Shown: in pieces, positions 5,897-52,488 of the stretch
How the letters are laid out: each line of letters begins with the position of its first letter
Numbering within the stretch: the stretch's first letter is position 1
Source of the DNA: Planctomycetaceae bacterium
GTDB taxonomy: Bacteria; Planctomycetota; Planctomycetia; Planctomycetales; Planctomycetaceae
Length of the DNA: 64,000 bases
Direction: 5' to 3'
Assembly: GCA_002724315.1 (NCBI GenBank)
Contig: PBOJ01000124.1
Location: 62,001 to 126,000 of the forward strand
Made by a program: the position numbers and the translations under genes
Notes under the pieces: model-generated
What the model was told of the DNA's origin: nothing
What the model saw: the letters and a program-made list of their open reading frames with translations, nothing else
The model's database searches: none

Positions 5897-5898
5897 GG

Positions 5899-11704: not shown

Positions 11705-11713
11705 CGGCCGGGG

Positions 11714-12861: not shown

Positions 12862-12890
12862 CCGGTCACGGTCCGGGGGCGTGTGAGTTG

Positions 12891-13352: not shown

Positions 13353-13428
13353 GCCGGGGTCCCGGCGACCGCGCGACCGGCCAACTCGTTAGGATAGTGG
13401 CCCACGACACCCCCAGCCGTGCGAGGTC

Positions 13429-15510: not shown

Positions 15511-15557
15511 GGTGAGACGATGGTCGATTCCTCGGTTGGAAGTGGGAGACGACGCTG

Positions 15558-17156: not shown

Positions 17157-17177
17157 ACCGACGCGTCCGCGTGGAGG

Positions 17178-17456: not shown

Positions 17457-17487
17457 GGAACCGTCCCCGCTATCGAAGGATCGATGG

Positions 17488-18609: not shown

Positions 18610-18673
18610 GTGAGGTATGCTAGGGCATTCGGGAGACGGACTCCACTTTCCCCGCCACTGTTGAGGCGGCATA

Positions 18674-34457: not shown

Positions 34458-35155
34458 GCGTCCCTCCGGTTTTCTTTTCCCAACATGGCCGCCAGCAGTG
34501 TCATCCCGGTTGCCAACAGCAACAGCAACCCTCCCATTGCCAGCCCGACAGCGAACTCGCCCCGGCCGGTTTCCAGGGCCGTGGCGGTCGACAGCGTGCG
34601 GGTACGATCCTTGATGTTGCCACCGACCATCATTGCGATCCCCAGTTCGGTCGAGCAGCGGGCGAAAGCGGTCAGGATGGCCAGAATCAACCCCGTGCGG
34701 GCCTCACTGAGATAGGTCAGCAGGCGACGGACAGGTCCGGCACCGAGTGTCCGGGCGGTTTCCGGGATCCTGTGATCGAGTGTGACGAGAGCCCCGTGAG
34801 CCAGGGCCACGACGATTGGCAGCGCCAGCAAGGTCTCTCCGATGACAATTGCCGAGGGGGTGTAGAGCAGGTCCAGCGGTCCCAGCGGGCCACGGCGGGC
34901 CAGCAGGCCGAAGCACAGCAGGCCCAGGAAGACTGTCGGGACTCCCAGCGCGGCCCGGAACATCACCAGCAGCAGGCGGTGGCCGAAAAAGCGGCGTCGA
35001 GCCAGGCACGTGGCAATTGGCAGCCCGATCAGGATCGCCAGGGCGACGGCGGACAGCGAAATGCCCAGCGTGCGGAGCGCGGCATCGAGGATCTGCCGAT
35101 CGCCGCTGGCGATCAGCCGGACGGCTTCTTTCAGACCGTCGAACAGGAAGTCCAT
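34454..35155 (-). CDS. tupB: ABC transporter permease, tungstate type
   Basis: A 233-residue integral membrane protein with about five or six TM segments. The EAA-like loop ARTLGAGPVRRLLTYLSEARTGL with following LARC-like helix, and GPVRRLL, match permeases of the molybdate/tungstate/sulfate class. It overlaps its neighbours at both ends (one base with tupA, four with tupC), showing a tight operon. Specificity is inferred from the binding protein. Confidence 0.85.
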   Translation of the reverse strand: MDFLFDGLKEAVRLIASGDRQILDAALRTLGISLSAVALAILIGLPIATCLARRRFFGHRLLLVMFRAALGVPTVFLGLLCFGLLARRGPLGPLDLLYTPSAIVIGETLLALPIVVALAHGALVTLDHRIPETARTLGAGPVRRLLTYLSEARTGLILAILTAFARCSTELGIAMMVGGNIKDRTRTLSTATALETGRGEFAVGLAMGGLLLLLATGMTLLAAMLGKENRRDA

Positions 35156-36012
35156 CAGGGAGTGTCACGCGGGTGCGGGTAGAACAGCGGTTCGCCCTCG
35201 ATACGAAACGACGCGATCTTCTCCTGTACCTGGTCGGAGATCAGGTAGTCAGCCAGCCGGATCGCCATCGACACGTTGATCCGTTCATGTTTTTGCGGAT
35301 TCACGACCAGCACGCCGTAGGGGTTGTGCAGCGCCGGGTCATCCTCGACCAGGGGAACCAACGTGATCTTGTTCTTGAACTTCAGGTAGGTGCCGCGATC
35401 GCACAGCACGTAGGCCGCCATTTCGTTGGCGGTCATCAGCGTGTGCCCCATGCCGCGTCCGGTTTCGACATATCGGTCCCAGGTGGCCAGTCCCCCGGCG
35501 ATTTCCCAGAGTCCAAGTTCCCGTTTGTGGGTTCCGCTGTCATCGCCTCGAGAAACGAACGTTGTGGCGGTGTCCCGGATTTCCTTGAATGCTGCCACGG
35601 TCTTGCGGTCGGAGATGTCGGCGGGGTCGGATGCGGGGCCCAGTAGCACGAACGAGTTGTACATCACGTCGTCGCGACGCAACGCATGGCCGGCCTCGAG
35701 AAAGTCGAGTTCGCTTTTCCGGGCATGGATCAGCAGCACGTCGACGTCTCCCCCGGTTCCCAGGCTCAGGGCCTGGCCGGTTCCCACAGCGATCACGTCG
35801 ACTCTCACGTTGTGAGCCGCTTCAAATTCCGGAAGCAGGTAGTCCATCAATCCGGTGTCCGCCGTGCTGGTGCTTGTTGCCAGTCGGAGCACACTGGACT
35901 CACCGGAGGTCGGTTCCGGGCCGGTTGTTGACCCGGCCTGTTCTCCTGGTCCGCCACTGCACGCTGACAACCCGAGTATGGCGGCGGCGGCGATTCCGAA
36001 CACGAGTCGCAT
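35155..36012 (-). CDS. tupA: Tungstate-type ABC transporter substrate-binding lipoprotein
   Basis: A 285-residue lipoprotein (lipobox LGLSACSG). LRLATSTSTADTGLMDYLLPEFE contains the TSTS-type oxyanion-binding motif of TupA/WtpA-like proteins (TTTS), followed by VDVIAVGTGQALSLGTGGDVDVLLIHA, FVLLGPASDPADI and FVSRGDDSGTHKRELGLWE, all typical of TupA. This supports tungstate rather than molybdate, although molybdate is not excluded. First gene of the operon. Tungsten enzymes are not seen in the window. Confidence 0.85.
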   Translation of the reverse strand: MRLVFGIAAAAILGLSACSGGPGEQAGSTTGPEPTSGESSVLRLATSTSTADTGLMDYLLPEFEAAHNVRVDVIAVGTGQALSLGTGGDVDVLLIHARKSELDFLEAGHALRRDDVMYNSFVLLGPASDPADISDRKTVAAFKEIRDTATTFVSRGDDSGTHKRELGLWEIAGGLATWDRYVETGRGMGHTLMTANEMAAYVLCDRGTYLKFKNKITLVPLVEDDPALHNPYGVLVVNPQKHERINVSMAIRLADYLISDQVQEKIASFRIEGEPLFYPHPRDTP

Positions 36013-36083: not shown

Positions 36084-38768
36084 TCAGCGGGGGCTGAACC
36101 GAACCGGCGACTGCTTGCCGCCCAGGCGTCCTCCGTCCTGCTGCAGCGATGTGCCGAGGTGATCAAACAACTCGCTTCCGGAAACGTGGCCATCGGCGTC
36201 TTTGTCGGCCAAACCGCGGAAGCCGGTGGCGATGTGCCAGGCGAACAGGCCATGCCGCCTCTGTGGATCGACCAGCCCCTTTTGTCCATCACCGCAACTG
36301 GCGATCACCGTTGTGGTTTTGAGCCGTTTGCCGAGAGCGGCCAGCAGGGCGGCGCCGTCGGGTTGGCGTTGCAGGTCACGACCGCTGCCGGCGTGTGTCA
36401 CGTCAAGCAGCCAGATCTTTTCGGCTCCCCGACTCGATTCGATCTGATCGGCCAGCCAGTCCATCGACACACCGGTTTCAGCCATGTTTTCCCAGTCGAA
36501 CCCGCGCGGGGCCAACCACAGCTGATCGTCGTCACCGCGGTAGACGTGGCCGGTGGTGTAGACGACCAATTCGGCACGGCCTCGCAATTCTCCCAGGAAT
36601 CCCTTCACCTGCTTCTGGAGTTCGGCTCGGGGAGTGTCGCTGAGCAGCTTGGAATGGCTGCCGTCGGTGGGGACGCGATAGAACCACTCCAGGTGGTTGG
36701 CGACGAGTTTCAGGTCACCACCGGCGAACGGCAGGGGGGTCAGCGACTTGTCCTGGTAGCGGCTGGTACCGATCAGCAGGGACCAGCGATGGGGATAAGC
36801 CCCTCGCTCGGCGGCCACCATTATCGTCCGTCCGCCATCCGGCTCGGCTGAAATCCACGCGGTGTCGTCGGGTCTCAGGTCGCCCAGTTTCGCCGGGCGG
36901 CTGTTGAGGAATACGGAGGTCTCCTTTCCCACCGGCAGGTTGACGGTGCCGTTGGAGGATTTGATGGCCAGTCGGCCGGTGGAGACATCGATCGAATTGA
37001 TGGCACCGCGGATCATCGGTTGCCGGGCCTGGATAACAGTGACCGACGAGATGGTCGTGTCGTGGCTGATTTCCACCAGCATGTTCTGCTCGATCGACTT
37101 CAGCGTCCAGGAGGCTCGTTCGGCAGCCGCCGCCCCCCGACCGGCCAGGTTGGCGTCGTCGGCCAGCGTCCATGACCGGTAGCCGGGGCTGCTGGCTCCC
37201 TGTTGCAGTTGCAGGGTCAGTCGCGGCTTGGCCGCGTCAATCCGGTTGACCAGCCCCACGGTTGTCATGGTTCGCCGGATGTCGACCCGGGTGGCCAGCC
37301 GCGATCCGCTGCCACCGGAATCGAGGACGTGGACTGCTGTGATGTGATCGCCGGGGGCAACATCGGCAATGTCGCCGGTTTCCCCGTTGAGTCTCATCCG
37401 TGTCCCGTCACCGATTCTCATCTCGATGTCGTCTCGGTCGTCACCGGCCTGTGGGGACAGAACCAGCCGTGCGGCGGGGACATCGACTCCACCGACCACG
37501 CCTTCGTGAGTCGTCGAGGGGGCCACGATCAACTCGACCACCCGTGGCGGCTCCTCAGCGGTCCGTTTCAATTCGAGCCGATCGCCAGGCGAGAGGTCGT
37601 CTAGCGCCCCGTGTTCCTTGTCGTTGCTGTTTCGCGTGATCACCACGTGCACGTCGTCATCCAGGCGAATGTCGCTCGAGATGCCGGTCGTCATGTTCCT
37701 GACCCGCAACCGGTGGCCGTTGTCGGTGATCTCCTCGAGCACCACCACGTCGGAAACGGTGTCGCCGTCCCGAGGAGTCGGTGCCGGTCCGCCCCCGGGG
37801 AGGAAGACCAACAGCAACGAGAGAAAGACTGACACGCAGGCGGCGGCAATGGCCAGCGTCCGTTGCCGATTGACGGGTTCGGCAGCCGTGGAGTCACTGT
37901 CCGCTTCAGCAGCATCTCCGGATCCGTCCTTGCGGATGATCTTCACGTCGATGTTGAGGTCCGAGAGAGCGTCTTCGGCCGACTCGTACCTCCGCGACTG
38001 ATCCTTTTCGGTCAGTTTCTGGATGACCTTTGCCAGGTCCCCGGGGACTCCCTCCAGGACCTCGCTGATTCGAGGCAGTCGACGGTCCGGTGCCGCGTGC
38101 CATTCGATCCACGGGTCCTCACCGGTGACGTCACTCCGAAGTGCCCCGAGTCCCAGAGCGAGTTCTTCGAACGGCGGACCGCACATCAGCTCGTAGGCGG
38201 AAAACCCGAGCGAGTAGAGATCACTTCTGGCATCGACTTCACCGAAGTCTTCCGACACGACCTCCGGTGCGATGTACCGGGTGGCCCCCTTGAGTAGCGT
38301 TCCGTCCTGATCGCTGACCCGGCGTGAGAGACCAAAGTCTCCGATTTTGATTCGTCGGCGGGCATCGATCATCATGTTCGACGGCTTGATGTCTCCATGA
38401 ACAATCCCGCGATCGTGCAGGTAGTGCAGGGCCCTCAGGCAGTGAGCCAGGGTGGTCTTGAGGGCCCGCAGGTCCATCTGTCTGCCGGCCAATCGCTCGG
38501 CCAGAGTGGCCTGCATCAGTTCCATCACCAGCCAGCCCCGTTTTCGGTCGATGTCGTAGATCGTGACGACGTTGGGGTGCTGCAGCGATGCCAGCAACTG
38601 GGCTTCCTGCCAGTAGCGGTCCAGTTGCAGAGTTCCGCCGAGGAACTCGTCGCGGATCTGTTTGACGGCGACCTCGCGGCCAAGTTCCCGGTCACGGGCT
38701 CGGTAGACGGTCGTGTAGCGTCCGGTACCGACGGTTTCGAGCTGTTCGTATCGGGTTTCGCCGGCCAC
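36084..38768 (-). CDS. Transmembrane Ser/Thr kinase with extracytoplasmic pseudo-caspase domain
   Basis: An 894-residue protein. Residues 7-270 are a Hanks-type kinase: VAVK with Lys36, HGDIKPSN with Asp126 (HGD in place of HRD), DFG at 144-146 and APE near 167. One TM follows (about 303-324). The outer part has about three beta-rich repeats of the kind G.v..ID....rL.l..........l.pGD (335-655). Residues 661-880 look like a caspase/C14 fold: WSLLIGTSRYQD, His741 in VVYTTGHVYRG, and LLDVTHAGS where the usual DxCHxG Cys is Thr791, so peptidase activity is unlikely. DKDADGHVSGSE (855-866) is a textbook EF-hand loop. It is the last gene of the Tad-like pilus block, 102 bases after the FHA gene. 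Confidence 0.85.
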   Translation of the reverse strand: MAGETRYEQLETVGTGRYTTVYRARDRELGREVAVKQIRDEFLGGTLQLDRYWQEAQLLASLQHPNVVTIYDIDRKRGWLVMELMQATLAERLAGRQMDLRALKTTLAHCLRALHYLHDRGIVHGDIKPSNMMIDARRRIKIGDFGLSRRVSDQDGTLLKGATRYIAPEVVSEDFGEVDARSDLYSLGFSAYELMCGPPFEELALGLGALRSDVTGEDPWIEWHAAPDRRLPRISEVLEGVPGDLAKVIQKLTEKDQSRRYESAEDALSDLNIDVKIIRKDGSGDAAEADSDSTAAEPVNRQRTLAIAAACVSVFLSLLLVFLPGGGPAPTPRDGDTVSDVVVLEEITDNGHRLRVRNMTTGISSDIRLDDDVHVVITRNSNDKEHGALDDLSPGDRLELKRTAEEPPRVVELIVAPSTTHEGVVGGVDVPAARLVLSPQAGDDRDDIEMRIGDGTRMRLNGETGDIADVAPGDHITAVHVLDSGGSGSRLATRVDIRRTMTTVGLVNRIDAAKPRLTLQLQQGASSPGYRSWTLADDANLAGRGAAAAERASWTLKSIEQNMLVEISHDTTISSVTVIQARQPMIRGAINSIDVSTGRLAIKSSNGTVNLPVGKETSVFLNSRPAKLGDLRPDDTAWISAEPDGGRTIMVAAERGAYPHRWSLLIGTSRYQDKSLTPLPFAGGDLKLVANHLEWFYRVPTDGSHSKLLSDTPRAELQKQVKGFLGELRGRAELVVYTTGHVYRGDDDQLWLAPRGFDWENMAETGVSMDWLADQIESSRGAEKIWLLDVTHAGSGRDLQRQPDGAALLAALGKRLKTTTVIASCGDGQKGLVDPQRRHGLFAWHIATGFRGLADKDADGHVSGSELFDHLGTSLQQDGGRLGGKQSPVRFSPR

Positions 38769-38870
38769 CGCGTCGGTCCTCAGGGCAATCCCCCCCGAAT
38801 CGGGAGGACGATCCGATTATGTCCCCATAGAGGCTATGGCGGAAGTGAAGGCAACAGGATCGGGCCCGGT

Positions 38871-39767
38871 TCAGGGCCCCTTCAGTGTTGCGATCGACTT
38901 CCGCAATTGCTTGTCACGGCTCACGTCGCCGGTCAGGCCCGTTGTGCCGAGATCTTCGGCATTGAGCAGTTTCAGCAACCGGTCATAAGCCTGTAGTTCG
39001 CCGGATCGATCGGACCGGGCGGCCGATGTCAGGGCGTCGCGGACCAGCAATCGCCAGCCGGCCTCGGCCTGGTTCTTCTTGGGCTGGGAATCGTCGAGCA
39101 TCTGCTTGAGTTTTTGTCGTTCGGTTCGGCGGTCGTTGCCGGTCGCACGATTGCCCGGGCCCTCGACCACCAGCAGCAGAGCCGTCGACGCCACGCTGGC
39201 TGCCAGCAGCAGGGCGAGCATCAACGAGTTGGAACGGCGGGTTTTCTGTTCGGACTGCCCGCCGGTGAGTTCCTCGTCGAGGTTCAGCTCCGGAAGTTGT
39301 CCGTCTTCTCCCAGTTGTACACGGGATTCGCCCTCGGCGTTGGTGACGAACTTGGCCAGTTGCCGCTTGCGTCGGCGTCCCTTCCGGCCACGTCGTTTCT
39401 CCTTGCCCGACCGTTTGACCGGTTCATTGGTTTCCTCTCCCCCATTCCCATTCTCATCGTGGGCGGACATCGCGAAGTGGAGGCTGGTGCGATCTCCCAG
39501 CACGATGTCGGCTTCCCCGGGGAGCCAGACCCATCGCTGCGGAGGGATCGGGCTGCCGTCGATGGAGACAGCGTCCGGCAGCGGTGTGAAGATGGCGTAG
39601 CGGCCGTTTCGGAGGACGATGCTGGCGTGGTGATCGGCCAGGTTGGCGTCCTCAAGCACAACCTGGTTGCTCTCGGCACGGCCGATGTGTACCAGTTCGG
39701 TCTCGAGCTCGAACAACTGCCCGCGGGCCGGGCCGCGGGTGATGGTGATGGTTGCCGGTTCACTCAT
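38871..39767 (-). CDS. Membrane protein with N-terminal degenerate FHA domain
   Basis: A 298-residue protein. Residues 1-98 form an FHA-like beta sandwich (VHIGRAESNQVVL, ADHHASIVLRNG, SIDGSPI): the Gly-Arg is kept, but the Ser of the Ser-x-x-His pair is Ala and Asn-Gly is Asp-Gly. A very basic linker (KRSGKEKRRGRKGRRRKRQ) and an acidic stretch precede one TM (about 183-203). The short C-terminal domain (WRLLVRDALTSAARSDRSG...) is helical. Its start lies 20 bases after the tadC stop, so it belongs to the pilus operon. Confidence 0.75.
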   Translation of the reverse strand: MSEPATITITRGPARGQLFELETELVHIGRAESNQVVLEDANLADHHASIVLRNGRYAIFTPLPDAVSIDGSPIPPQRWVWLPGEADIVLGDRTSLHFAMSAHDENGNGGEETNEPVKRSGKEKRRGRKGRRRKRQLAKFVTNAEGESRVQLGEDGQLPELNLDEELTGGQSEQKTRRSNSLMLALLLAASVASTALLLVVEGPGNRATGNDRRTERQKLKQMLDDSQPKKNQAEAGWRLLVRDALTSAARSDRSGELQAYDRLLKLLNAEDLGTTGLTGDVSRDKQLRKSIATLKGP

Positions 39768-39786
39768 GGGACAATTCTACCCGCGG

Positions 39787-40722
39787 CTACTCCATCAGGT
39801 CGACATAGATGAAACTGAGGACGAAGGGGCCGAGGATGATCAGCACGGTGGCCGCCATCACCAGCACGCTGGGCAGCAGCATCTTCACGCCCGCCTCACC
39901 GGCTATGGTCTCGGCCCGTTGCGTTCGCTTGATCCGCAGCACGTCGGCCTGGGTGCGGAACAGCCTTGCCAGGGGGGTTCCCAGGGTTTCCCCCTGGATG
40001 ATCGATCCGATGATGCTGGTCACCTCGGGATCATCCAGCCGGTCGCGCATTGCCTCGAGTGCCCCGATGCGGCTCTTGCCCATGTTGATCTCCGAGAGCA
40101 CCCGTCCGAATTCCACTCCGACCGGATGATCACGAAACTCGGCGACGGATTCCTCGAGTGATTGCAGGAACGTCGCCCCCGCTTCCATCAAGAGCGTCAG
40201 CAGGTCGAGCAGGAATGGCAGCCGCTGCTTGATGCGGAACAGTCTCAGGGCGGCCTTCTGGGCCAGCCGACGGCGGAGCAGCCAGACGGTCGCCGGTCCG
40301 GCGGCCAGGCCACCCAGCAGTCCGGGGGGGCCAGCCAGGTCGAGACCGATGTAGATGTAGGCGGGTGTCAGTATCGCCGCCAGGATCTGTATCGTGCCGA
40401 GGTACTCCTGGGGAGTCCAGAATCGTGGCAGTCCGGCGGCCTGGATGTCACGCAGGATGCCGGGAAGCGAATCGCGGAAGGCACGGCGATTGACCTGGCC
40501 CAGTCCGACCACCAGGGGCTGCAGGAAACGGTAGACCAGGCTTCGACGCCGCAGTTCGGCGATCCGCAATTGGTCGTGACGCCAGGTGTCGTCACCGTCG
40601 GGGTCATCGGCGACGGCGTTCTGCACGGCACGGACCAGCACAAACAGTCCCATCGCCAGCATCACGCAGGCGATCACCTGCAACAGGGGGAAGGGCGAGG
40701 ATGTGGATTGGGCGAGCAACAC
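39787..40722 (-). CDS. tadC: TadC-like inner-membrane assembly protein
   Basis: A 311-residue type II secretion system F-domain protein. LPFLLDLLTLLMEAGATFLQSLEESVAEF and MGKSRIGALEAMRDRLDDPEV form the cytoplasmic helical GspF domain, with TM segments near 15-32, 110-145 and 285-308. TadB and TadC form the membrane platform of Flp/Tad pili. It lies seven bases after the tadB-like stop. Confidence 0.85.
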   Translation of the reverse strand: MLLAQSTSSPFPLLQVIACVMLAMGLFVLVRAVQNAVADDPDGDDTWRHDQLRIAELRRRSLVYRFLQPLVVGLGQVNRRAFRDSLPGILRDIQAAGLPRFWTPQEYLGTIQILAAILTPAYIYIGLDLAGPPGLLGGLAAGPATVWLLRRRLAQKAALRLFRIKQRLPFLLDLLTLLMEAGATFLQSLEESVAEFRDHPVGVEFGRVLSEINMGKSRIGALEAMRDRLDDPEVTSIIGSIIQGETLGTPLARLFRTQADVLRIKRTQRAETIAGEAGVKMLLPSVLVMAATVLIILGPFVLSFIYVDLME

Positions 40723-40729
40723 GGCAGGA

Positions 40730-41575
40730 TCAGATCTCGGGATTGAGGATCGCGCAGGCCCAAAAGTAGGCCATGAGGTTCAGTAAGAACGCCAGGCAGA
40801 GGATCATCTGGCCGGGAATCTCGGTGAACAGCATCCGGGTGTGCACGGGATCGATGAAGTAGTTCATCAACAGGATCACTATCGGTGCCAGGGCCATGTA
40901 CAGCGACGATGTGCGAGCCTGGGCGGTTTCGGACCGGACCTTTCGCTCCAGTCGCTGCAGTTCCCGCACGCTGGTGGCAATCCGTTCGACCGTCTCGTTG
41001 AGACGTCCACCACTCTGGCGGCTGGCTTCCAGCGCCGCCGCGAACAGCGCGAAGTTCTCGCTCCGCAACCGGTCCTTGGCTTCCTTGAGACACTGTTCCA
41101 GGTCCTTGCCGAGCTGGTACTCGCCGACGATCTGGAGGAATTCCTGGCTGATCGGCTTGGGACTCTGCCGGGCAAGAATGTCCAGCGCCTGAGCAAGCGA
41201 GAGACCGGCCTTGATGGCATTGGAGAGCGAGACCATGGCGTCAGCCAACTGGTCTTCGATCAGCAGGCGGCGTTTTTCGGCCAGCTGTCTGAGCACGTAC
41301 CACGGCAGGCTGACCAGCAGGACCGCGGCGGTCACCGAAAACACCAGGGACCCGGCGACGACCAGCAGCGAGGCCGCGACGGCCGCGACGAGGACCGACC
41401 AGGTTACCAGGTACTTTCTCAGGCGGTCGGTCCGCAGCCTCAACCGACGCAGCTTGTCCTTCAGGTCCTCCTCGACGAAATCGATCGCCTGGGAGTAGGT
41501 CGAGCGGCCGGCGATGGCTCCGACGGTGACGGCGGCGGCGACCATGCTACTGCCGATGATGGCCAGCAAGTCCAT
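40730..41575 (-). CDS. tadB: TadB-like inner-membrane assembly protein
   Basis: A 281-residue GspF-domain protein paired with tadC. TM segments flank the helical domain QLADAMVSLSNAIKAGLSLAQALD ... ARQSGGRLNETVERIATSVRE, which carries the characteristic SGG.L.e...ia..iRe motif. It interacts with the TadA ATPase to drive pilus polymerisation. Starts 12 bases after the FHA-CpaF gene. Confidence 0.88.
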   Translation of the reverse strand: MDLLAIIGSSMVAAAVTVGAIAGRSTYSQAIDFVEEDLKDKLRRLRLRTDRLRKYLVTWSVLVAAVAASLLVVAGSLVFSVTAAVLLVSLPWYVLRQLAEKRRLLIEDQLADAMVSLSNAIKAGLSLAQALDILARQSPKPISQEFLQIVGEYQLGKDLEQCLKEAKDRLRSENFALFAAALEASRQSGGRLNETVERIATSVRELQRLERKVRSETAQARTSSLYMALAPIVILLMNYFIDPVHTRMLFTEIPGQMILCLAFLLNLMAYFWACAILNPEI

Positions 41576-41587
41576 CGATGGATTCTC

Positions 41588-43486
41588 CTAGGACTGGTCA
41601 CCGTAGAGGGATTCGAGTTTCAGCAGGTCGCGTTCGACCAGCCGGTCGATGAAGCTGGGCATGTAACCGGTCGGCACCAGCCCCGTTTCGCTGCGGGTGC
41701 TGAAGATCTCGGTCGTTGCCACGCACTGTCGCTCGGTGTCGTAACCGGTGACTTCCGAGACCTGTGTCACGCCCCGGCGACCACCGGGCAACCGGCTGAT
41801 CTGGACGATGATGTCGATGGCCGAGGCGACCTGTCGCTGGATCGAGATCACTGGCAGATCGACGGCCATCAGCACCAGCACCTCGAGACGTTTCAGGACA
41901 TCGTCGGTGTTGTTGGCGTGAATGGTGGTCATAGAACCGTCGTGGCCGGTGTTCATGGCTTGCAGCATGTCGAGTGATTCGGGTCCGCGGCATTCGCCGA
42001 CGATGATCCGGTCGGGTCGCATCCTCAACGCGTTCTTGACCAGGTCGCGGATGGAGTACTCGCCGGCGCCCTCGACGTTGGGGGGGCGGGCTTCGAGTGT
42101 CACCACGTGTTCCTGGTGCAACTGAAGCTCGCTGGTGTCCTCGATCGTGATGATCCGATCCTTGTGCGGGACAAAGCTCGAAAGCACGTTCAAAAGCGTG
42201 GTCTTGCCGGTACCGGTTCCGCCGCTGACCAGGACATTCCGCCTGTCGATCACGCAGGCTCGAAGGAACTGGGCTGCAGATTTGGTGATCGAGTCGAGCT
42301 CGATCAGGTCGTCCATGGTGAAGCGGTAGGCCGGGAACTTGCGGATCGTCAGGCAGGGGCCGCGGGTGGCCAGGGGAGGGATGATGGCGTTGACCCGTGA
42401 TCCGTCCGGCAGCCGGGCGTCGACCAGTGGTTGGCTCTTGTCGATCCGGCGGCCGACCTGGGCCACGATCCGCTCAATAATCGACTCGGTGACCTTGTCC
42501 GAAATGAACCGGCGTCCCGAAAGCTCGACCACGCCGTCACGCTCGACGTATATCTGGTCGCTCTTGACCACCATGATCTCGGTGATCGTCGGAGCTCGCA
42601 GCAAATCCTGCAGGGGGCCGAAGCCGAAGACGGTGTCCTTGAGATCCTTCTTCAGCGTCCGCAGGATCAGGTACCGCTTCAGCTCCTGGTGCAGGTGCGG
42701 CCGCACGCGAGGGAACACGTCGTTCATCCGCGATTCGACACGGTTGATCCGTTCGCTGAGATCGCGGCAGCCTTCCAACTGCAGCTGCTCGCGAACAAAC
42801 CCGATCAGGTGTTCGAGTTCGGTCTCTCGTTCGGGGACCAGTGTCGCCGGCACGTCGAATTCGTTGGCACCCATTGCCGTGACCGTGTCCCCCATCGGAA
42901 CCGTGTCGTCACCGCTCTCGAGAATCAACTGGTTGATCATCAGGTCCTGCAGCAACAGCGACACGACCTCTTCGAGCAACGGGAGGTTGTCGTCGCCGAA
43001 GAGATTCAGTTCGCGGCAGACATCCTCGATGTTCTCCTCGAGCATCAGGATGCTTTCCGTGCCGCCCAGTTGGCTGCTCTCCAGTTCGAACAGGTCGAAG
43101 CGTTCCAGCAACTGCCGGTGCACCCGGAGTTCGAGGCTGGCCATGATCGAGCGGAGGTGCGATTCGAGCTGGCTGCGGCTGATCGGGCTGGCCTGCTCGG
43201 ACTCGAAAGTCAGGGTGAACGGCCAGATACGGACGGTGTCACCGGGTGAGAACTCGCATGTCTGTCCCCCCAGCACCTCGGTCTCGCCGACGACGCAGCT
43301 GTTGATGCCAAGGTTTTCGAGGGTCAACAGTCCGTTGTCACGTCGGATGACGGCCTGCTGCTTGCCGACCAAGGGGCTCTGCAGCACCACCGTGTTGCCT
43401 GTGTCACGGCCGATCCGGATCACCGGATCGTCGGTTTCGACCAGGGACCGTCGGCTATCGTGGACCTTGTTGAACCAGACTTTCAT
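41588..43486 (-). CDS. tadA: TadA/CpaF-type secretion ATPase with N-terminal FHA domain
   Basis: A 632-residue fusion. Residues 1-96 are FHA-like ([24 protein letters not shown]) but the Ser-x-x-His segment reads VGKQQAV, so Ser and His are Gly and Gln. Residues 110-230 are a helical linker. The C-terminal 400 residues are a complete CpaF ATPase: Walker [10 protein letters not shown] (422-430), Asp-box [10 protein letters not shown] (494-503), His-box [16 protein letters not shown] (511-526) and the Arg-finger region [10 protein letters not shown]. It powers Flp pilus extension. Stop is 12 bases before tadB. The FHA could link it to the operon kinase, but its binding residues are altered. Confidence 0.9.
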
Positions 43487-43531
43487 GGGATGTCGAGCGG
43501 AGAGTGGAGGGGAGAGAGACCCGGCGAAGGC

Positions 43532-44266
43532 CTAGCGTTTGGCCTTGTTCCGGCGATGGAGCAGCACCTGGACACCCTGGAAGTTGTTGACCGCCAGGAT
43601 CCCGGCCAGGGTTTCGGCCTTGGGCTCGAGTTTGCCATCGGGATTTTCGACCTTCACGGCGACGGCGATCACGTTTTCGGCGCCCGAGGCCAGGCCGGCG
43701 GCCTGGCGGACGTCGCGGCGGCCTTTGCGGTTGCCCAGGGCCAGGATCCGGAAGGGGCCGAGGATCTTTCCTCCCGCTTCGGTCGGTTGGCTGCGACTCG
43801 CGCCTTTACCGAATTCGGGGATGCGGAAACTGACCTGGTCGCCCGGATCCACATGCTGGGGGTTGAAGGTTCTCGAATCGACCGGCAGCCACATCACGCG
43901 TTCGTTGTCGGCGATCAGCTCGTTGATGTCCTTGATGGCCGGGGTGGTCAGATCGCGGTGCATCACCAGTTCGGCTTCACCGGAAACGGCCAGGTCACGG
44001 GCGGCCTTCTGGCCGATCACCAGGTCCCTCTGGTCCCAGAGAACAGCAACCTGTGCCAACTGCGATTCATGGCTCTTGGGCATCGAGATCGGCACCAGGT
44101 CGTCGGACTGGATCACGTCGCCTCGTTTGACGTCGGCCGGCTGGGAGACGCCGACGAAACTGACGAGTTCGACCCGGCTGGCTTCCCGTTCCAGATACAG
44201 CCAGTTGCAGACGAAGCCCACGACGCCCATCGCCACAGCGATCATGATGCCCTGTGCACCCTTCAT
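43532..44266 (-). CDS. cpaB: CpaB/RcpC-like pilus assembly protein
   Basis: A 244-residue periplasmic protein with an N-terminal TM (7-24). The SAF-like domain appears in VKRGDVIQSDDLVPISMPKSHESQLA followed by the IGQKAARDLAVSGEAELVMHRDL pattern, typical of CpaB (which acts with the secretin in the outer envelope). The partner secretin is missing from the window. It overlaps the upstream gene by four bases (ATGA) and precedes the FHA-TadA gene by 45 bases. Confidence 0.82.
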   Translation of the reverse strand: MKGAQGIMIAVAMGVVGFVCNWLYLEREASRVELVSFVGVSQPADVKRGDVIQSDDLVPISMPKSHESQLAQVAVLWDQRDLVIGQKAARDLAVSGEAELVMHRDLTTPAIKDINELIADNERVMWLPVDSRTFNPQHVDPGDQVSFRIPEFGKGASRSQPTEAGGKILGPFRILALGNRKGRRDVRQAAGLASGAENVIAVAVKVENPDGKLEPKAETLAGILAVNNFQGVQVLLHRRNKAKR

Positions 44267-45243
44267 GTTGACTCCCGCTTGCCCGGTGACGCCGGGCGTG
44301 TTCTAGGTGTCCCCGGCTGAACCGGGGTGAAGACGTTCAGCATACCATGCCATCTGCCCGAGTTGTCATGTCGCACTGAGATGACCACTGTACGGCCGGA
44401 GGGGTGTTGCCAACGGGCAGTCCAGCCATCGCGGTGCCGGGACGGTGGCGATGTCGTTGACCAGCCGTTGTCATGAAGTTCGCGTTCGAAGTGGTTCCAC
44501 CAGCCGTCCGGCCCCGGTGATCCGGTGAAGACCACCAGTCGCTCGGGGTCGCCGTCGCCGACCGACAGCAGTCGGCGACAGTCGGTCGGCAGTCTGATTG
44601 GTTCGGTGGCCACGTTACCGGCGGCGGCAAACGTCCAGGTGACCCACTCGTCCTGGGGAGTCCGGGTGGCCAGTCCCCAGCCAACCACCCGTCGCTGGCC
44701 CAGCAGTCGGCGGACAGCTACGACCATCGGCAGCGGACCTTCGAGTCGATGCAGCGAGGTGGTGGCCTGTGACGGTTCCGAGTCCAAATGTGGTCGGCGA
44801 TCGGCCAGGACTGTCAGCAGCTGCTGTTCAGCCTCGTCGGCGTCCCTCTCAGGCCATCCCGCCGAGTCGGCCGTATCGCGAATGGAACTCTCGAGTGCCC
44901 GGTAGGCCGCCTCGCGATCACCGATCAGCCTCCGGCGATGGATCGTTGTGGCCAACTCGCCGAGCTGAAGATCATCGGGTTCGGTCCAGGCCGTTCCGGC
45001 TCCGGTGACGCGATCGGCATCCGCGGTCGATTCGAGTCCCGGTTCGTTCCACCAGGCGGTCAACTGGCGTCCCAGCGCCAGCCCGATAACCAGCAGCAGT
45101 CCGATGGCCAGCAGATCGGTCGCACGACGGCGGTACCACCTGGCCGACTCGCCGACTCCACCGGACGCGGCGGATTCCAGGGACGCCAACGGATGGTCGG
45201 TCGCCGGGGCGTCGGGATCGAGATGGTTGACTTGGTCGGACAC
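44263..45243 (-). CDS. One-TM protein in the Tad-like operon, unknown function
   Basis: A 326-residue protein with a short cytoplasmic N-tail, a TM at about 47-64 (LLAIGLLLVIGLALGRQLTAWW) and a large polar domain. WVTWTFAAAGNVATEPIRLPTDCRRLLSVGDGDPERLVVFTGSPGPDGWWNHFERELHDNGW may form a sensor-like alpha/beta fold, but I do not recognise it. Overlaps cpaB by four bases and starts 15 bases after the TadE-like gene, so it is part of the operon and may assist pilus assembly. Confidence 0.65.
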   Translation of the reverse strand: MSDQVNHLDPDAPATDHPLASLESAASGGVGESARWYRRRATDLLAIGLLLVIGLALGRQLTAWWNEPGLESTADADRVTGAGTAWTEPDDLQLGELATTIHRRRLIGDREAAYRALESSIRDTADSAGWPERDADEAEQQLLTVLADRRPHLDSEPSQATTSLHRLEGPLPMVVAVRRLLGQRRVVGWGLATRTPQDEWVTWTFAAAGNVATEPIRLPTDCRRLLSVGDGDPERLVVFTGSPGPDGWWNHFERELHDNGWSTTSPPSRHRDGWTARWQHPSGRTVVISVRHDNSGRWHGMLNVFTPVQPGTPRTRPASPGKREST

Positions 45244-45258
45244 GGTGGTTGTGACGGG

Positions 45259-46272
45259 TTAGTTCAGCAGGGTTGACTCGAAAGATTCCAGCTGCTGGAT
45301 CAGGGGAATGTAGGCGGCGTCGGATTGTCCGTTCATCCGGGCTCGCCGGGCCAACTCGCGATACATTCTCAGGAAATCCCGCGTCAGCGCGCCGGGAATG
45401 CCGGCCTGGTTGAGGCTCTCTCTTGGTCTGGCGCGACCCTGGATCTGTTCGACCAGTCGGTCGGTGAACCTGGAGAGATCCGCGGGGTCGCTGGTTCGGG
45501 CATTCCGGGGAGGACGTGGGTAATAGTCGCGGTTGCCGTAGAAGCTGGCCAACTCACCGTCGCGGTCGAAAAGGTCCATCCCGCGACGGTTCAGGCCACT
45601 TCGCAATGCCGTGGCCAACTGACGAAAACGGGCCGTGTGCATTGCCGTCACGTTTTGCCAGCGTCCGGCCAGGTCGGGGTAAAGACGTAGAGAGCGTCGA
45701 GAATCGTTGGATGACAGGTTCATCTGCCAGAACTGCCAGCAATTGTCGAGGACGGGAAAGTCCACCTCGTGCCGGTAACCCCTGGGCGGCAATTGTCCCA
45801 GGACGGGGAAACCCCGTTCGACGGAGGCCTGCCCGGTGATCATCCCGCGGCGGACGTCCAGCAGGTCCTGATCGACTCGCAATCCTCGGCCGGATTGTGG
45901 GTCGATGAGCATCGGGCCGCGGGCGACCGCGTGTTGGTCGTAGAGGGCCAGTTGCGTTGTCGGAACCGAGATGCTTGGCACGTGGGATCGATCGACGCTC
46001 ATCCGGGCTGGTGCCGGGAATCCGGGAGGATTGGGCATGTCCTGTGCGTCTGTGCGTGGGTTGGCTCGCCAGATCGATCTCCACGCGGCCTCGCGGGCAT
46101 GGATCTGGGTGCGGACCTTGAAGGTGGCGGCCCAGCCGATGAGGATCATCAATCCCATGACGAACAACAGCACCGGCAGGCTGAGCACCAGTTCGAGTGG
46201 TGCCAGGCCGCGACGGCCGGACCGCTTGCCGGGAACGACCCGGTCTCGCGTTGTTGTCCGATAGGCCTGCAT
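45259..46272 (-). CDS. TadE-like pseudopilin
   Basis: A 337-residue protein from ATG 46272. The N-terminus RRGLAPLELVLSLPVLLFVMG is a prepilin-type signal: cleavage after Gly22 places Leu1 with Glu at +5 and a hydrophobic helix. This matches TadE/TadF minor pilins, although the body is much longer than theirs (about 130-200 residues). The long upstream open frame overlaps the previous gene and is rejected. The gap to the TadG-like stop is only eight bases. Confidence 0.75.
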   Translation of the reverse strand: MQAYRTTTRDRVVPGKRSGRRGLAPLELVLSLPVLLFVMGLMILIGWAATFKVRTQIHAREAAWRSIWRANPRTDAQDMPNPPGFPAPARMSVDRSHVPSISVPTTQLALYDQHAVARGPMLIDPQSGRGLRVDQDLLDVRRGMITGQASVERGFPVLGQLPPRGYRHEVDFPVLDNCWQFWQMNLSSNDSRRSLRLYPDLAGRWQNVTAMHTARFRQLATALRSGLNRRGMDLFDRDGELASFYGNRDYYPRPPRNARTSDPADLSRFTDRLVEQIQGRARPRESLNQAGIPGALTRDFLRMYRELARRARMNGQSDAAYIPLIQQLESFESTLLN

Positions 46273-46280
46273 GGGGGATC

Positions 46281-47819
46281 TCAGTGACTGACCAGGTTGT
46301 CGAGTGTTTCGCCGGGGATTCTCGAGAAGGGGCCGCTCCGCAGCGTTCCGGCCCGGGGATCGAGTCCCGAGGGTGAGCGGGCCAGGATCTGCTGCAACTC
46401 CGGCAGCGAGGCGGGCATGATCCGCGTGGTCCAGTTCTGGCTCATCAGGTCCCACCGCTGCGGCCAGTTTTCGCGGTATGGGATCGGACGCCATCCGGTG
46501 ATTTCGCGGGTCTCGGGATCACGGATCGGCACCCAGCGAACCCAGGATCCGTTGACACGGACATAACGTGGTTCGGGCAAGTAGACCTGCAGTTGGGCGA
46601 ACGACTGCGCGTCGGAAAATTCCGAGAGAGGATTCTCGAACAGTCCCGGACCCATCTCTTCAATATGCCGGCGATAGACGACGGCCAGCAGATGGTAGTC
46701 GCGATTGAGGTGCAGGTTCACCTGCCGCCATCCTCCCGATGACTGCATCTGCTTCATCCGGCTCGGATGCGTTCCGTCGATCATTCGCCGCATCTGGAAG
46801 GGCAGATTGTTCAGCGGGTATTCCCGGATGAGCAGTCGGTCGAGTTGGCCACGTGTGGCGATCCGCCACAACTCGCCGAAGCGGGACATGCGGGCATCGC
46901 GGTCGAAAAGTTCGAGTTTCTGGTTGTTCCAGAGTTCGAGGTAGTGATTGGCGAGATCACTGCGCTGCTTGACAGCGTCTTCGAAGTACTCCTGGCCGTG
47001 TCCGGCTGCCCCGAAGTCTGATCCGGTCGGTGAGGGATCGATGGCCGGCACGGTTCTGAGCAGAGGATGAGCTTCGGAGGCTTCACCGATGGCCTGGGTG
47101 TTGGACCGGAACAGCACGCAGGCCGGCACATCGCCGGGCTGAAGGCTGCGGCTGACCAGGTTGGGATTCGACGGATCGCGACGAGCGGGATTGGTTGGGC
47201 GGGCGTGTCGTCGGACCGTTTCTCGTGCCGCCGAGACCGCCAGGTGGGGAACGGTTTCGACCAGCGTCCGCTGGTACTCGGGGATCAACTCGTACTCGAG
47301 TACGGACTCGAAAATCGGAAGGAAATGGGCCGCTGCTGCGGCGTGTTCGTCGCCGAATGCGGTGACCGCCCGTTGTTCGAAGGGGATTCGCTGGACCACC
47401 GCCTGGCCGGCCGGCGGAAACTTGGCAAAGGCGGCCTGCAGCAGGTCGCCGCCAGCCAGGCCCCAGGCCTGCAGGATCTCCGGCACCTGGGCTTCGGCAT
47501 TCCGCTGCTGCCCCTCACGCAGATAGGCGGTGATCGCGAAGACCTCGCACAGCAGGTGATTGGTGTGGGCGAGCCCATTGAGTCCGCGGGCCAGCATCAC
47601 CCCGCCGGTGACCGCGGCCGAATCGGCGGCATTCTGCATCTTGAGCTTGTCATCAGCGTGACGGCCGACGTTGGTGATCATCACCAGCAGCATGGTGAAC
47701 ACCAGCAGCACCAGCAGGGTCACGATGCTGATCGTGCCACGTTGGTCACCGTGGAGGCGACCGAGTCGAACCCGAATCCGCGAGCGGATCCGGTGGCTGG
47801 AGGTGTTATCGGTTGGCAT
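46281..47819 (-). CDS. TadG-like pilus assembly protein
   Basis: A 512-residue protein from ATG 47819. It begins HGDQRGTISIVTLLVLLVFTMLLVMI and continues KLKMQNAADSAAVTGGVMLARGLN, the recognisable N-terminal signature of putative Flp pilus-assembly TadG-like proteins (one TM, then QNAADAAA). The remaining 400 residues are soluble and rich in Arg/Gln/Trp; no VWA motif is visible. The start overlaps the stop of the preceding gene by 14 bases. Confidence 0.75.
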   Translation of the reverse strand: MPTDNTSSHRIRSRIRVRLGRLHGDQRGTISIVTLLVLLVFTMLLVMITNVGRHADDKLKMQNAADSAAVTGGVMLARGLNGLAHTNHLLCEVFAITAYLREGQQRNAEAQVPEILQAWGLAGGDLLQAAFAKFPPAGQAVVQRIPFEQRAVTAFGDEHAAAAAHFLPIFESVLEYELIPEYQRTLVETVPHLAVSAARETVRRHARPTNPARRDPSNPNLVSRSLQPGDVPACVLFRSNTQAIGEASEAHPLLRTVPAIDPSPTGSDFGAAGHGQEYFEDAVKQRSDLANHYLELWNNQKLELFDRDARMSRFGELWRIATRGQLDRLLIREYPLNNLPFQMRRMIDGTHPSRMKQMQSSGGWRQVNLHLNRDYHLLAVVYRRHIEEMGPGLFENPLSEFSDAQSFAQLQVYLPEPRYVRVNGSWVRWVPIRDPETREITGWRPIPYRENWPQRWDLMSQNWTTRIMPASLPELQQILARSPSGLDPRAGTLRSGPFSRIPGETLDNLVSH

Positions 47820-48906
47820 TGAAGGCGTGGACGTAGGGGACCAGGGACTTGACACCGTCGTTGGTGACGGTGGCCCGGGCCCAGATGGTGGTGGTGTAAA
47901 CGCGGTTGTTGTATTTCGGGTCGTGGGGTGACGAGTCACCGTCACGGGCCTCTCCACTTTGTGGATCGATCTGGCGACGGGGACCGGCCCACTTGTTGAT
48001 CCTGTGGCTGACCAAATCGGGCGGGCCGCCTGGCCGGACAAGGAACTTGGCCAGGAATCTGCCCGGACCGGGCAACAGGGCGAGGTTGTGCCGCACGGTC
48101 ACGGTGATCGGGTCTCGCCAACCGATTTCGTTGGGCACGTAGGTGTGGGTGGGATGATTGAGCGGGTTGTGGGTGGGGCCGATGTGGGAGTTGAGGTTCT
48201 GGAACCGGATCCAGATCTCGGTGTTCCAGTAGCTGTAGCAGAACTTGTTGTAGAGCCGGGCTTCGGTGGAGGGAGTCACATCGGGGCCGGCGAATTGTTG
48301 CCAGGCTGTCTGAATGGCCAGGAAGTGACTGCGGGCATCGGACTGGATGTCGAGTCCGAGATGCCGTGAGGGTGAGATGGTGGCACAGGCGGTCACCGCC
48401 GTGCGGTGCGGATATTCGAGCTTGAGCATATTCTCGGCGGAGTTGACCTCGGCGTTTTCGGTGAGACCGTCAATCCGCGTGCCACCGATGAAGTTGTAAC
48501 CGCGGCTTTTTCCCGGCCGCAGTTCGGGGGCGCGGATCATGTTCTGGAAATGAACTTCCTCGCCGAACGGATCGGTCGAATCGTCGCCTTCGACCTCGGT
48601 GACATGCTGGGGCACCCAGGCGGCGATGCTACGGGCAGCACCGTAGGCGGCGTAGTTGATCACCACCTGAGCGATCATCAACTGGCTGACCTGGACGATG
48701 AACATCACGAGCATCACGAAGATCGGCAGTGTCAGCACGAACGAGAGACTCTGCACGCCGCCACGCTGGCAACGGTGCAACTGGACCAGACGCCGCAGGT
48801 CGAAGCGGCAACCGCTGGCACGGATCACCACGATCAACGCCAGCATCGCCGCGGCCAGGGCGAACAGCGCGGGTCGGCAATCGTCGAGGATCACTCGCAG
48901 TGCCAT
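47806..48906 (-). CDS. TadE/TadF-like membrane protein with an additional TM
   Basis: A 366-residue protein. One hydrophobic segment near the N-terminus (about 12-30) is followed by RGGVQSLSFVLTLPIFVMLVMFIVQVSQLMIAQVVINYAAYGAARSIAAW, a TadE-like helix (prepilin-type class III motif weak: Gly then Val-Gln-Ser-Leu-Ser). The C-terminal domain is a beta-rich soluble region ending VKSLVPYVHAFNANR. It is coupled to the next gene by a 14-base overlap and follows the prepilin peptidase gene by 43 bases. Confidence 0.7.
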   Translation of the reverse strand: MALRVILDDCRPALFALAAAMLALIVVIRASGCRFDLRRLVQLHRCQRGGVQSLSFVLTLPIFVMLVMFIVQVSQLMIAQVVINYAAYGAARSIAAWVPQHVTEVEGDDSTDPFGEEVHFQNMIRAPELRPGKSRGYNFIGGTRIDGLTENAEVNSAENMLKLEYPHRTAVTACATISPSRHLGLDIQSDARSHFLAIQTAWQQFAGPDVTPSTEARLYNKFCYSYWNTEIWIRFQNLNSHIGPTHNPLNHPTHTYVPNEIGWRDPITVTVRHNLALLPGPGRFLAKFLVRPGGPPDLVSHRINKWAGPRRQIDPQSGEARDGDSSPHDPKYNNRVYTTTIWARATVTNDGVKSLVPYVHAFNANR

Positions 48907-48949
48907 GTCGTGTGGTTATTCGAAAGGGAGCGGATCGGGAAAGGGAGGG

Positions 48950-49513
48950 TCAGATGTACTCTCGCAGCGACTCGGCGGCCCCGGTGAGAGTCATCAGCAC
49001 ACCGGCCAGGGCTGAGGGTGCCAGGAACAGGGATCTCTTCAACGGTTCGCGTTCGGCCGTCTCCAGCGGGACCCAGCCTCGCGAGCGAACAACCAGTGCC
49101 AGGTGGCGGGCGGTGCCGACCAGGATTCGGCCGGCTCCGATCTGCCAGATCAGCATCGCCAATCCGGTGACGCCGCCGAGCACAATCGTCCACAGCAGAG
49201 CCGTCAGCCCGTGCTGCAGGCCCAGAAACGCTCCGACGGTGGCCAGCAACTTGACGTCGCCACCACCCATGTCCGAGAGCAAAAAACAGGTCAGCATGAT
49301 GCCTCCACAGCCGACGATCCCGAGAAGGCTCTCGGTCAGTCCGGTCGTGTCGAGTTCCAGGCGGCCCGCCTCCGACAGTCGAATGGCTCCAAAGAGTACC
49401 CCGGCAATCAGGCCGGGGTAGGTGGTCCAGTTGAAGATGCGGCCCTTGAGGACATCTGTCACCGAGGCGACCAACAACAGGCTCACCAGGACGATTTGTG
49501 ATAACTCCGGCAT
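48950..49513 (-). CDS. Prepilin peptidase (TadV/CpaA, A24 type)
   Basis: A 187-residue polytopic aspartic protease that processes Flp prepilins. The two catalytic Asp are Asp20 (LLVASVTDVLKGRIFNW) and Asp86 in the GxGD motif DMGGGDVKLLA. Length and TM count (about five to six) match the short CpaA form without the N-methyltransferase domain. ATG 49513 is chosen over an ATG 15 codons upstream because it starts at the first TM helix. It follows the pilin gene by 58 bases. Confidence 0.85.
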   Translation of the reverse strand: MPELSQIVLVSLLLVASVTDVLKGRIFNWTTYPGLIAGVLFGAIRLSEAGRLELDTTGLTESLLGIVGCGGIMLTCFLLSDMGGGDVKLLATVGAFLGLQHGLTALLWTIVLGGVTGLAMLIWQIGAGRILVGTARHLALVVRSRGWVPLETAEREPLKRSLFLAPSALAGVLMTLTGAAESLREYI

Positions 49514-49571
49514 GGACGAAGCGTTCTCCACGACGGCCCGCTTGACCCGACGGGTCACCGGCCGGGCCGAT

Positions 49572-49793
49572 CTAGCGAACCGCTTCGTCGGTGCTCTGTT
49601 CCAGTGACTGCAGGCCCTTGTCGAAATAGTTGCGGATGGCCGGCCAGCCGAACTTGATGATCACGATCAACACCGGCAACGCGATGGCTGCGATGATCAG
49701 TACGGTTTCGAGCGTCAACGCTCCGCGTTCGTCACGGTGCAGTCTTCGCAGCAGACGCCCCGTCCGATGAATCAACGGCTTGATGAATCGCAT
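49572..49793 (-). CDS. flp: Flp-type prepilin
   Basis: A 73-residue pilin precursor. RRDERGALTLETVLIIAAIALPVLIVI shows a basic leader, cleavage after Gly24 and Glu29 at position +5, followed by a 20-residue hydrophobic helix and a short polar tail with FDKGLQSLEQ, just as in Flp/Fap pilins. Predicted to be the major subunit of the Tad-like pilus. It is the second gene of the block, 27 bases after the first small pilin-like gene. Confidence 0.85.
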   Translation of the reverse strand: MRFIKPLIHRTGRLLRRLHRDERGALTLETVLIIAAIALPVLIVIIKFGWPAIRNYFDKGLQSLEQSTDEAVR

Positions 49794-49820
49794 GTCGTCT
49801 TCCTCTGTCTGTGTGCCCGG

Positions 49821-50018
49821 CTACACGAAGGGCCAGGCCACCAGGGAGCAGATAATCTCGTAAACCACGGTGATCGCGTTGCGGCTCATGGGGATCAGCA
49901 ACGCCGCCATCGAGAGGATCACGGCCAGGACCAGCACGAAGTCCAGAGACGCCGCGGCACGGCGCGACGGCTTGTGGACTGTCGGATCAACCGCTGCTGT
50001 CCGTTTCGCCGGTTGCAC
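49821..50018 (-). CDS. Second small prepilin-like protein, GTG start
   Basis: A 65-residue protein starting with GTG at 50018, seven bases after AGAGG (50030-50026). RRAAASLDFVLVLAVILSMAALLIPM resembles a prepilin leader and helix, but the residue at -1 is Ala and +5 is Asp instead of Glu if cleavage is after Ala21. This may be a minor pilin or a variant. As the first gene after a 114-base upstream region, it is the presumed start of the operon. Confidence 0.7.
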   Translation of the reverse strand: MQPAKRTAAVDPTVHKPSRRAAASLDFVLVLAVILSMAALLIPMSRNAITVVYEIICSLVAWPFV

Positions 50019-51573: not shown

Positions 51574-52488
51574 TCAGAGACAGTCTCGCAGCTGAATGTG
51601 ATGCTGCCCCAGTTGGCCGCCGTAGTTGCCCGCTCCGATCAACTCGACCCCTTCGCAGCCGACTGCGGTGGCCAGCCCGACCCGCATGGCTTCGGTGACC
51701 GATTCGAGCGTCAGGCCATCGATGACGATCTCGTAGACGGCCTCGACGGTTTCGGGCAGCACCGAATCGACCTGGGCCCGCAAGGTCGGACACCACGCGT
51801 CATTGGTGCTGGCTTTGAGGGCCTTGTACTGGGAGCCGACCTTGCTGCCGCTGCGGACGAGTCCTCCGGGAAACGGCAGGATGCAGTCGGACACGTCTCT
51901 CATCGCCTCGGCGGCGGCCGTTGCCGCTGCCAGCGCCTGGTCTCCGGTGCTGCCACAGATCAACAGGTTTCCGCCGGCAACGCCCTTGGTGGACCCGAGA
52001 CGCTCTTCGCAAAGGAACTCGCCGTCCATCACTGGTACCCGCCACAGTCGGCGGTCACCGAGTTTCTTCGAGCCCTGGTAACCGTCGCCGAAGAACCTCA
52101 ACTGGCCACCGACGTTGATCCATTTTTCCGGGTCGCCGTCAGTCAGACCGTTGTAACAGGCGGTGGTGGGACAGGTGAGCACGCACTGGCCGATCCGGTC
52201 GATGACCGCCTGGGCCAGCGCCTCGCGGTTGAAGGCGAATATCAACAGGGAGACGCCGGGGCGACCGTCGGGAGTCTGGTCGGGGCCAAGACGATGCTCG
52301 ATCGCGGCCTCGGCGTTGCAGGCGATCACGCTGGTGGCGAAACCGGTTGCCTGGATCCCGGCCGTTTCGGCCCACTCGGCGGATACGGCCGTCACGATCA
52401 CTCGCGTACCGACCATCGTGAAGGCCTCGGCAAACGTGTCGGCAATCGCCACTCCGTTGTGCTCGAAGGTCTCCATTGCTGTCGCCAT
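51574..52488 (-). CDS. ftr: Formylmethanofuran:tetrahydromethanopterin formyltransferase
   Basis: A 304-residue protein that transfers the formyl group between methanofuran and tetrahydromethanopterin in C1 metabolism (fhcD in methylotrophs). Motifs match along the whole length: VAIADTFAEAFTMVGTRVIVTA, TGFATSVIACNAEAAIE, QTPDGRPG, LTCPTTACYNGL, FFGDGYQ, GGLVRSGSKVGSQY, LKASTNDAWCPTL and GNYGGQLGQHHIQL. Planctomycetes are known to contain this pathway. No other pathway gene is next to it; a 125-base gap precedes the DUF1501 gene. Confidence 0.92.
   Translation of the reverse strand: MATAMETFEHNGVAIADTFAEAFTMVGTRVIVTAVSAEWAETAGIQATGFATSVIACNAEAAIEHRLGPDQTPDGRPGVSLLIFAFNREALAQAVIDRIGQCVLTCPTTACYNGLTDGDPEKWINVGGQLRFFGDGYQGSKKLGDRRLWRVPVMDGEFLCEERLGSTKGVAGGNLLICGSTGDQALAAATAAAEAMRDVSDCILPFPGGLVRSGSKVGSQYKALKASTNDAWCPTLRAQVDSVLPETVEAVYEIVIDGLTLESVTEAMRVGLATAVGCEGVELIGAGNYGGQLGQHHIQLRDCL

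Follow-up and report, generated by a model that had tools for sequence, protein, structure and literature searches.

Does a Tad-type pilus locus that sits beside genes for a Ser/Thr protein kinase (STPK) and FHA-domain proteins carry its own signalling module? We addressed this question in a Planctomycetaceae bacterium (assembly GCA_002724315.1; 5.69 Mb, 91.8% complete), in which a window of 64,000 nucleotides (contig PBOJ01000124.1, here C102, positions 62001 to 126000) contains a block of 13 open reading frames (ORFs) at window positions 36084 to 50018. A first-pass annotation had described thirteen minus-strand genes with overlaps or short gaps, and the ORF map bears this out: all 13 are on the minus strand and are separated by overlaps or by gaps of 7 to 102 bp, the widest lying between the membrane FHA gene (gene 12) and the kinase gene (gene 13). 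The block has the features of a Tad system, namely a CpaF/TadA motor, TadB, TadC, an A24 peptidase, TadE and TadG, together with an Flp-like pilin recognized by a weak match and a CpaB-like protein recognized below threshold. Judging from the sequences compared here, the block probably encodes a type IV filament machine of the Tad family that has a Ser/Thr kinase signalling module of its own.

The evidence that the kinase belongs comes from its distribution. We sampled 120 genomes of the family, 50 with an ortholog of the TadA/CpaF motor ATPase with an N-terminal FHA domain (FHA-TadA; gene 9, 41588 to 43486, minus strand; T2SSE E 2.5e-61, FHA E 2.4e-8; Walker A and Walker B motifs intact) and 70 without one. 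An orthologous kinase was found in 50/50 genomes with FHA-TadA, counted in G018 from two fragments at contig ends, compared to 3/70 without it; the three exceptions (G060, G112, and G132) are 78, 64, and 83% complete. The membrane FHA protein (46/50 compared to 2/70) and TadB (47/50 compared to 1/70) were counted in the same way, and in genera g26 and g35 near-complete genomes lack the whole co-occurring set together. The gene order, including the kinase, is the same in G001, G003, G010, G011, G059, G070, G075, G102, G045 (from another family), and L029, the closest named locus (uncultured Pirellulaceae, 60% identical); in G002 that order is divided between two contigs. Elsewhere in the family, FHA-TadA or TadC may stand alone, and the FHA gene may lie beside TadC or beside the kinase, and the co-occurrence holds even where the genes are scattered in this way. 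The first-pass annotation had named a lack of conserved linkage as the outcome that would refute it; the linkage is in fact conserved in syntenic loci. As co-occurrence is also near perfect where the genes are dispersed, the association of the kinase with this Tad system is well supported. A correlation between the kinase and TadA identity matrices (r = 0.76, 27 genomes) was discarded, as shared ancestry would give the same result.

The association also holds outside these 120 genomes. Among GTDB genomes, each of the six nearest FHA-TadA loci (L029 to L034) has an STPK, compared to 5 of 74 other Tad loci, counting within fetched flanks of at most 10 kb. L031, L032, and L034, which come from Phycisphaerae and one metagenome-assembled genome (MAG) labelled Deltaproteobacteria, again have the order TadA-TadB-TadC-FHA-kinase. 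The L031 locus (3397 to 18876) reads CpaF2-Flp-peptidase-TadE-TadG-TadE-x-CpaB-FHA.TadA-TadB-TadC-FHA-kinase, with names assigned from position, sequence, and partial Pfam scans; its Deltaproteobacteria label is unconfirmed, and transfer or a mislabelled MAG is possible. The L031 kinase is followed by an OmpA/DUF4384 protein and a separate caspase-domain protein. More broadly, an FHA-like N-terminus was found on 29 of 80 CpaF relatives from many phyla, weak matches included. Four loci, L053 (labelled only as a bacterium), L077 (Bdellovibrionales), L081 (Oligoflexia), and L097 (Bacteriovoracaceae), have a CpaF with a long N-terminus in which no FHA was detected and a separate two-FHA protein upstream.

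The kinase itself (gene 13, 36084 to 38768, minus strand; Pkinase E 9.1e-46) looks like an active membrane STPK. Residues 7 to 266 form the Pkinase domain, in which the expected Lys, HGD, DFG, and APE motifs are present, and a transmembrane (TM) segment follows at about residues 302 to 330. Across genomes the kinase domain is at least 58% identical (median 67%), and K36, D126, K128, N131, D144, and E169 are intact in most. We folded the periplasmic part with AlphaFold2 (AF2), using 22 orthologs (mean predicted local distance difference test score [pLDDT] 89.2, predicted template modelling score [pTM] 0.86); the predicted secondary structure shows some four beta-barrel repeats and, after them, an alpha/beta domain. 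Caspases and paracaspases make up most of the top Foldseek matches of this part (for MALT1 3v4o, E 1.7e-7 and a TM-score of 0.67 by target), and Pfam found Peptidase_C14 (PF00656) in 9 of 23 kinase orthologs. The "pseudo-peptidase" that the first-pass annotation named beside the kinase is the C-terminal domain of that kinase and does not have a gene to itself. The catalytic His of the caspase-type domain is kept in the window kinase (TGH) and the Cys position is a Thr; the Cys is lost in most orthologs and the whole domain is absent from four, so it is a pseudo-caspase and one that the sensor can lack. In kinases of remoter relatives the region after the TM segment is different again, with an SUMF/FGE-sulfatase domain in L031 and what read in the sequence as TPR-like repeats in L033. 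A constant kinase joined to an exchangeable periplasmic part suggests the pattern of a sensor kinase.

The block shares its Flp-like, A24 peptidase, CpaB, CpaF, TadB/C, and TadE/G genes with the canonical Tad/Cpa systems of Caulobacter and Aggregatibacter; it differs from them in having an added kinase and FHA genes and in having no secretin and no TadZ that we could see. An N-terminal FHA on the Tad motor, as in gene 9, is also found in class III CpaF (FHA-intrinsically disordered region-CpaF), for example in Achromobacter, a mostly betaproteobacterial class for which the accessible part of the source mentions no kinase (PMC12019362). The Kil system of Myxococcus xanthus has an FHA motor, KilF, and many FHA proteins, for which a signalling cascade, likened to the type VI secretion system (T6SS), was proposed but not identified (PMC8460266). 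Thus, of the combination that the first-pass annotation considered unusual for Tad loci, the FHA-fused motor and the multiple FHA proteins were already known, and the dedicated kinase is what is unusual here. In our literature search, which left most subscription papers outside its reach, we came across no published Tad system encoded together with a kinase.

Given these parallels, we considered whether the block encodes a Kil-like contact-dependent killing or secretion apparatus with a short Tad filament rather than an adhesive pilus. The motor FHA and the several FHA proteins are the features that distinguish Kil (PMC8460266), the block contains no dedicated secretin, and its components are scattered in many genomes, much as Kil is split into two clusters. 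However, the main text on Kil describes a single ATPase, reports TadG as missing, and names no kinase (PMC8460266), whereas the block has TadE/G-like genes, a dedicated STPK, and a co-occurring second CpaF; Kil also has a short secretin without N0 (KilC), and no effector gene was recognized in the block. We regard a Kil-like apparatus as a serious alternative that is nevertheless rather unlikely.

The second CpaF (CpaF2, L164) is encoded outside the window in the same genome (C47:49040-50158), is 46% identical to FHA-TadA, and has intact Walker motifs. It was detected in 46/50 genomes with FHA-TadA compared to 3/70 without; the cut-off applied excludes more divergent copies present in G071, G089, G103, and G111. 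CpaF2 heads the locus in G059 (L198) and in L031 and lies directly upstream of the pilin genes in G005, and it is likely to be a second motor of the same machine. Because Tad pili are described as running on one bifunctional motor ATPase (PMC12019362), this two-motor arrangement merits a study of its own.

The first-pass annotation had noted that the secretin and TadZ are missing from the block, and indeed a Pfam scan of its proteins found no secretin. Neither the block nor the loci L031, L034, and L198 showed a TadZ-like gene; a genome-wide search with the TadZ_N profile gave no match anywhere, including in the controls, and is hence uninformative. One genome with the complete block, G011, has only three secretin matches, none of them to the secretin on contig C93 of the window's own assembly, which suggests that the machine does not strictly require a dedicated secretin of the Tad type. 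We rejected the C93 secretin as the dedicated outer-membrane channel, since its family occurs whether or not a genome has FHA-TadA, and since G002 and G011, both of which carry FHA-Tad genes, gave no match to it at E ≤ 1e-20. C93 (L166) is an 8-kb contig carrying this secretin, a pilin-like ORF, and other small genes, and a close copy in G001 shares its contig with CpaF and TadC. Directly upstream of CpaB-FHA.TadA in L034 (Phycisphaeraceae) lie genes for a secretin and a TPR protein; the secretins on C171 and C102 of the window's own assembly, which resemble the L034 secretin only weakly, were likewise rejected as partners.

If the kinase signals to the filament machine, the FHA domains are its candidate readers. 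Across the 50 family orthologs of FHA-TadA, R27 (in the GR motif) and N62 are invariant (50/50), and S41, the usual phosphothreonine-site Ser of this domain, is present in 41. Among the nine genomes that have lost it, S41 is Gly in G011 and Ala in G005, G082, G107, G029, and G072. In the 49 genomes with FHA-TadA in which the kinase motifs are readable, catalytic lysines of the kinase are altered in four: the VAIK Lys is Arg in G005, G082, and G107, and the catalytic-loop Lys is Asn in G029. Every one of these four belongs to the nine genomes without S41 (4/9 compared to 0/40, Fisher 6e-4). This covariation is suggestive of a kinase-to-FHA axis, short of proof.

The second protein that the first-pass annotation called FHA, gene 12 (38871 to 39767, minus strand; TM segment at about residues 179 to 205), crosses the membrane once and has at its N-terminus a degenerate FHA/YscD-like domain, which matches the cytoplasmic domain of YscD of type III secretion systems (Yop-YscD_cpl E 2.1e-8) better than FHA (E 2.3e-4); of the two FHA calls, that of TadA stands as made. 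In the window's family this membrane protein is probably a decayed reader or a scaffold, and its counterparts outside the family keep canonical FHA residues (VSREHG..NNGT in L033 and VSPLHT..VNGT in L031).

Overall, the best explanation of these data is, in our judgment, phosphorylation control of the Tad machine, which we think somewhat likelier to be right than wrong and least certain in the window genus itself. The first-pass annotation had proposed a phosphorylation-controlled pilus; this is supported in part, in that the kinase and FHA genes do belong with the tad system, and the control itself is an inference. Several observations count against it. The Fisher values for co-occurrence (about 1e-24 or smaller) ignore shared ancestry, and in many family genomes TadA lies apart from the kinase and FHA genes. 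The covariation was first noticed in a set of 27 genomes, to which others were added afterwards, and counted by lineage it amounts to about two kinase-damage events in four Ser-loss lineages, with none elsewhere. The window genus has an intact kinase, but Gly in place of S41 and Gln in place of His44. In all family orthologs read, the membrane FHA has an ADHHA-type sequence with no Ser and no canonical N-G-T, and two orthologs of gene 12 (L029:11466-12386 and L129:12973-13929) have an N-terminus that looks zinc-ribbon-like rather than FHA. Finally, no phosphatase (PppA-like or PP2C) was found among the 13 genes and seven flanking ORFs scanned, the rest of the genome not having been searched.

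Some of these observations would be expected if the kinase belongs with the system but the FHA domains are phosphate-independent scaffolds, like the FHA-like cytoplasmic domains of YscD and PrgH, with the kinase acting instead on, for example, a regulator or an envelope protein. The better fit of the membrane protein to YscD_cpl, its want of canonical residues throughout the family, and the loss of S41 in 9/50 genomes while R27 and N62 stay invariant all suit this explanation, but S41 is kept in 41/50, kinase damage tracks its loss, and the partner proteins of L031 and L033 have canonical FHA residues; we consider it unlikely. That the kinase and membrane FHA are merely unrelated neighbors is very improbable: planctomycetes are rich in STPKs, and kinases do occur near 5 of 74 other Tad loci, but this idea is contradicted by the 50/50 compared to 3/70 distribution of an orthologous kinase and by joint absence within genera, unless shared ancestry alone accounts for the profile.

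Under phosphorylation control of the Tad machine, an envelope or contact cue would be sensed by the kinase through its periplasmic beta-barrel/pseudo-caspase part, and the kinase would then phosphorylate one of the machine's components on Thr. The TadA FHA would read this mark and thereby place or activate the motor, with gene 12 probably serving as the inner-membrane anchor in the readout. In the window genus, which has no S41, the readout may be altered or phosphate-independent. This logic would resemble the threonine-phosphorylation switch of the T6SS, PpkA-Fha-PppA, in which periplasmic input arrives through TagQRST or RtkS upstream of the kinase (PMC10482370, PMC3953482), now acting on a Tad machine. 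As there, a membrane STPK and an FHA protein are encoded with an envelope machine; in contrast, the machine is a different one, the FHA is on the motor ATPase, and no PppA-like phosphatase accompanies it among the genes scanned.

The remaining genes of the block are likewise on the minus strand. Gene 1 (49821 to 50018) encodes a 65-amino-acid (aa) hydrophobic pilin-like protein whose position and sequence are kept in syntenic loci, and gene 2 (49572 to 49793) a 73-aa Flp-like pilin, conserved in the same loci, with the prepilin-type motif ERGALTLETVLII. Of these two pilins proposed by the first-pass annotation, gene 2 has weak Flp_Fap/Flp1_like matches below cut-off; for gene 1, Pfam gives no Flp match, and the pilin call follows from its small size and hydrophobic segment. 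Gene 3 (48950 to 49558) is a CpaA-like prepilin peptidase (Peptidase_A24 E 2.3e-17), gene 4 (47806 to 48906) is TadE-like (TadE E 6e-7), and gene 5 (46281 to 47819) is TadG-like (Tad PF13400 E 2.4e-7). Gene 6 (45259 to 46272) is a second TadE-like protein (TadE E 0.016, sub-threshold; position conserved). The starts of genes 5 and 6 had been misplaced and lie nearer 47819, placed by coding score, and 46272. Gene 7 (44263 to 45243) encodes a single-TM protein of unknown family that is kept in syntenic loci, with orthologs in 14 loci; no Pfam family passed the cut-off, and its AF2 model (pLDDT 65, low confidence) had no structural match in Foldseek. Gene 8 (43532 to 44266) is CpaB/RcpC-like (matches below threshold to SAF, E 0.0016, and to RcpC, E 0.014; position conserved), and genes 10 (40730 to 41575) and 11 (39787 to 40722) are the platform proteins TadB (T2SSF E 8.7e-19) and TadC (T2SSF E 2e-12). 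The earlier domain calls are thus confirmed by Pfam for Pkinase, YscD_cpl/FHA, T2SSF (twice), T2SSE with FHA, Tad, TadE, and Peptidase_A24, and they are weak or sub-threshold for SAF/RcpC, the TadE of gene 6, and the Flp of gene 2.

Because the neighbors on either side share the strand of the block, sequence alone does not fix where the operon begins and ends, and a promoter and terminator scan of the block gave a signal no better than shuffles. We rejected the downstream transporter genes (33843 to 36012) as members and set the module end at the kinase, since the G011 block passes straight from the kinase to the next conserved gene (d4) without them. On the other side, a formylmethanofuran-tetrahydromethanopterin formyltransferase gene (51574 to 52488) lies beside the block and is an upstream neighbor in close relatives only.

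Taken more broadly, the block might represent an old, widespread class of Tad system with a built-in phosphorylation switch. Its kinase would have a periplasmic sensor that can be swapped (pseudo-caspase, SUMF-type, or TPR-like), its assembly motor would be tagged with an FHA domain, a second CpaF motor would stand apart, and a signal would gate assembly at the site of a contact or envelope event; this kinase type would then be the missing upstream kinase of the cascade proposed for Kil-like machines. We advance this idea only tentatively and think it doubtful as a whole. FHA domains on Tad motors have so far been described without a kinase, and the 50/50 co-occurrence now provides a named, testable kinase-reader pair. 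If phosphorylation control is true, the kinase/FHA control logic of the T6SS would extend to type IV filaments. To our knowledge, the crateriform structures and surface fibers of planctomycetes have no gene assignment. In Planctopirus, pili-like fibers arise from large crateriform structures (PMC5394234). A link of the block to these structures is only a lead, one that makes the block a candidate gene set for planctomycete surface fibers and crateriform structures.

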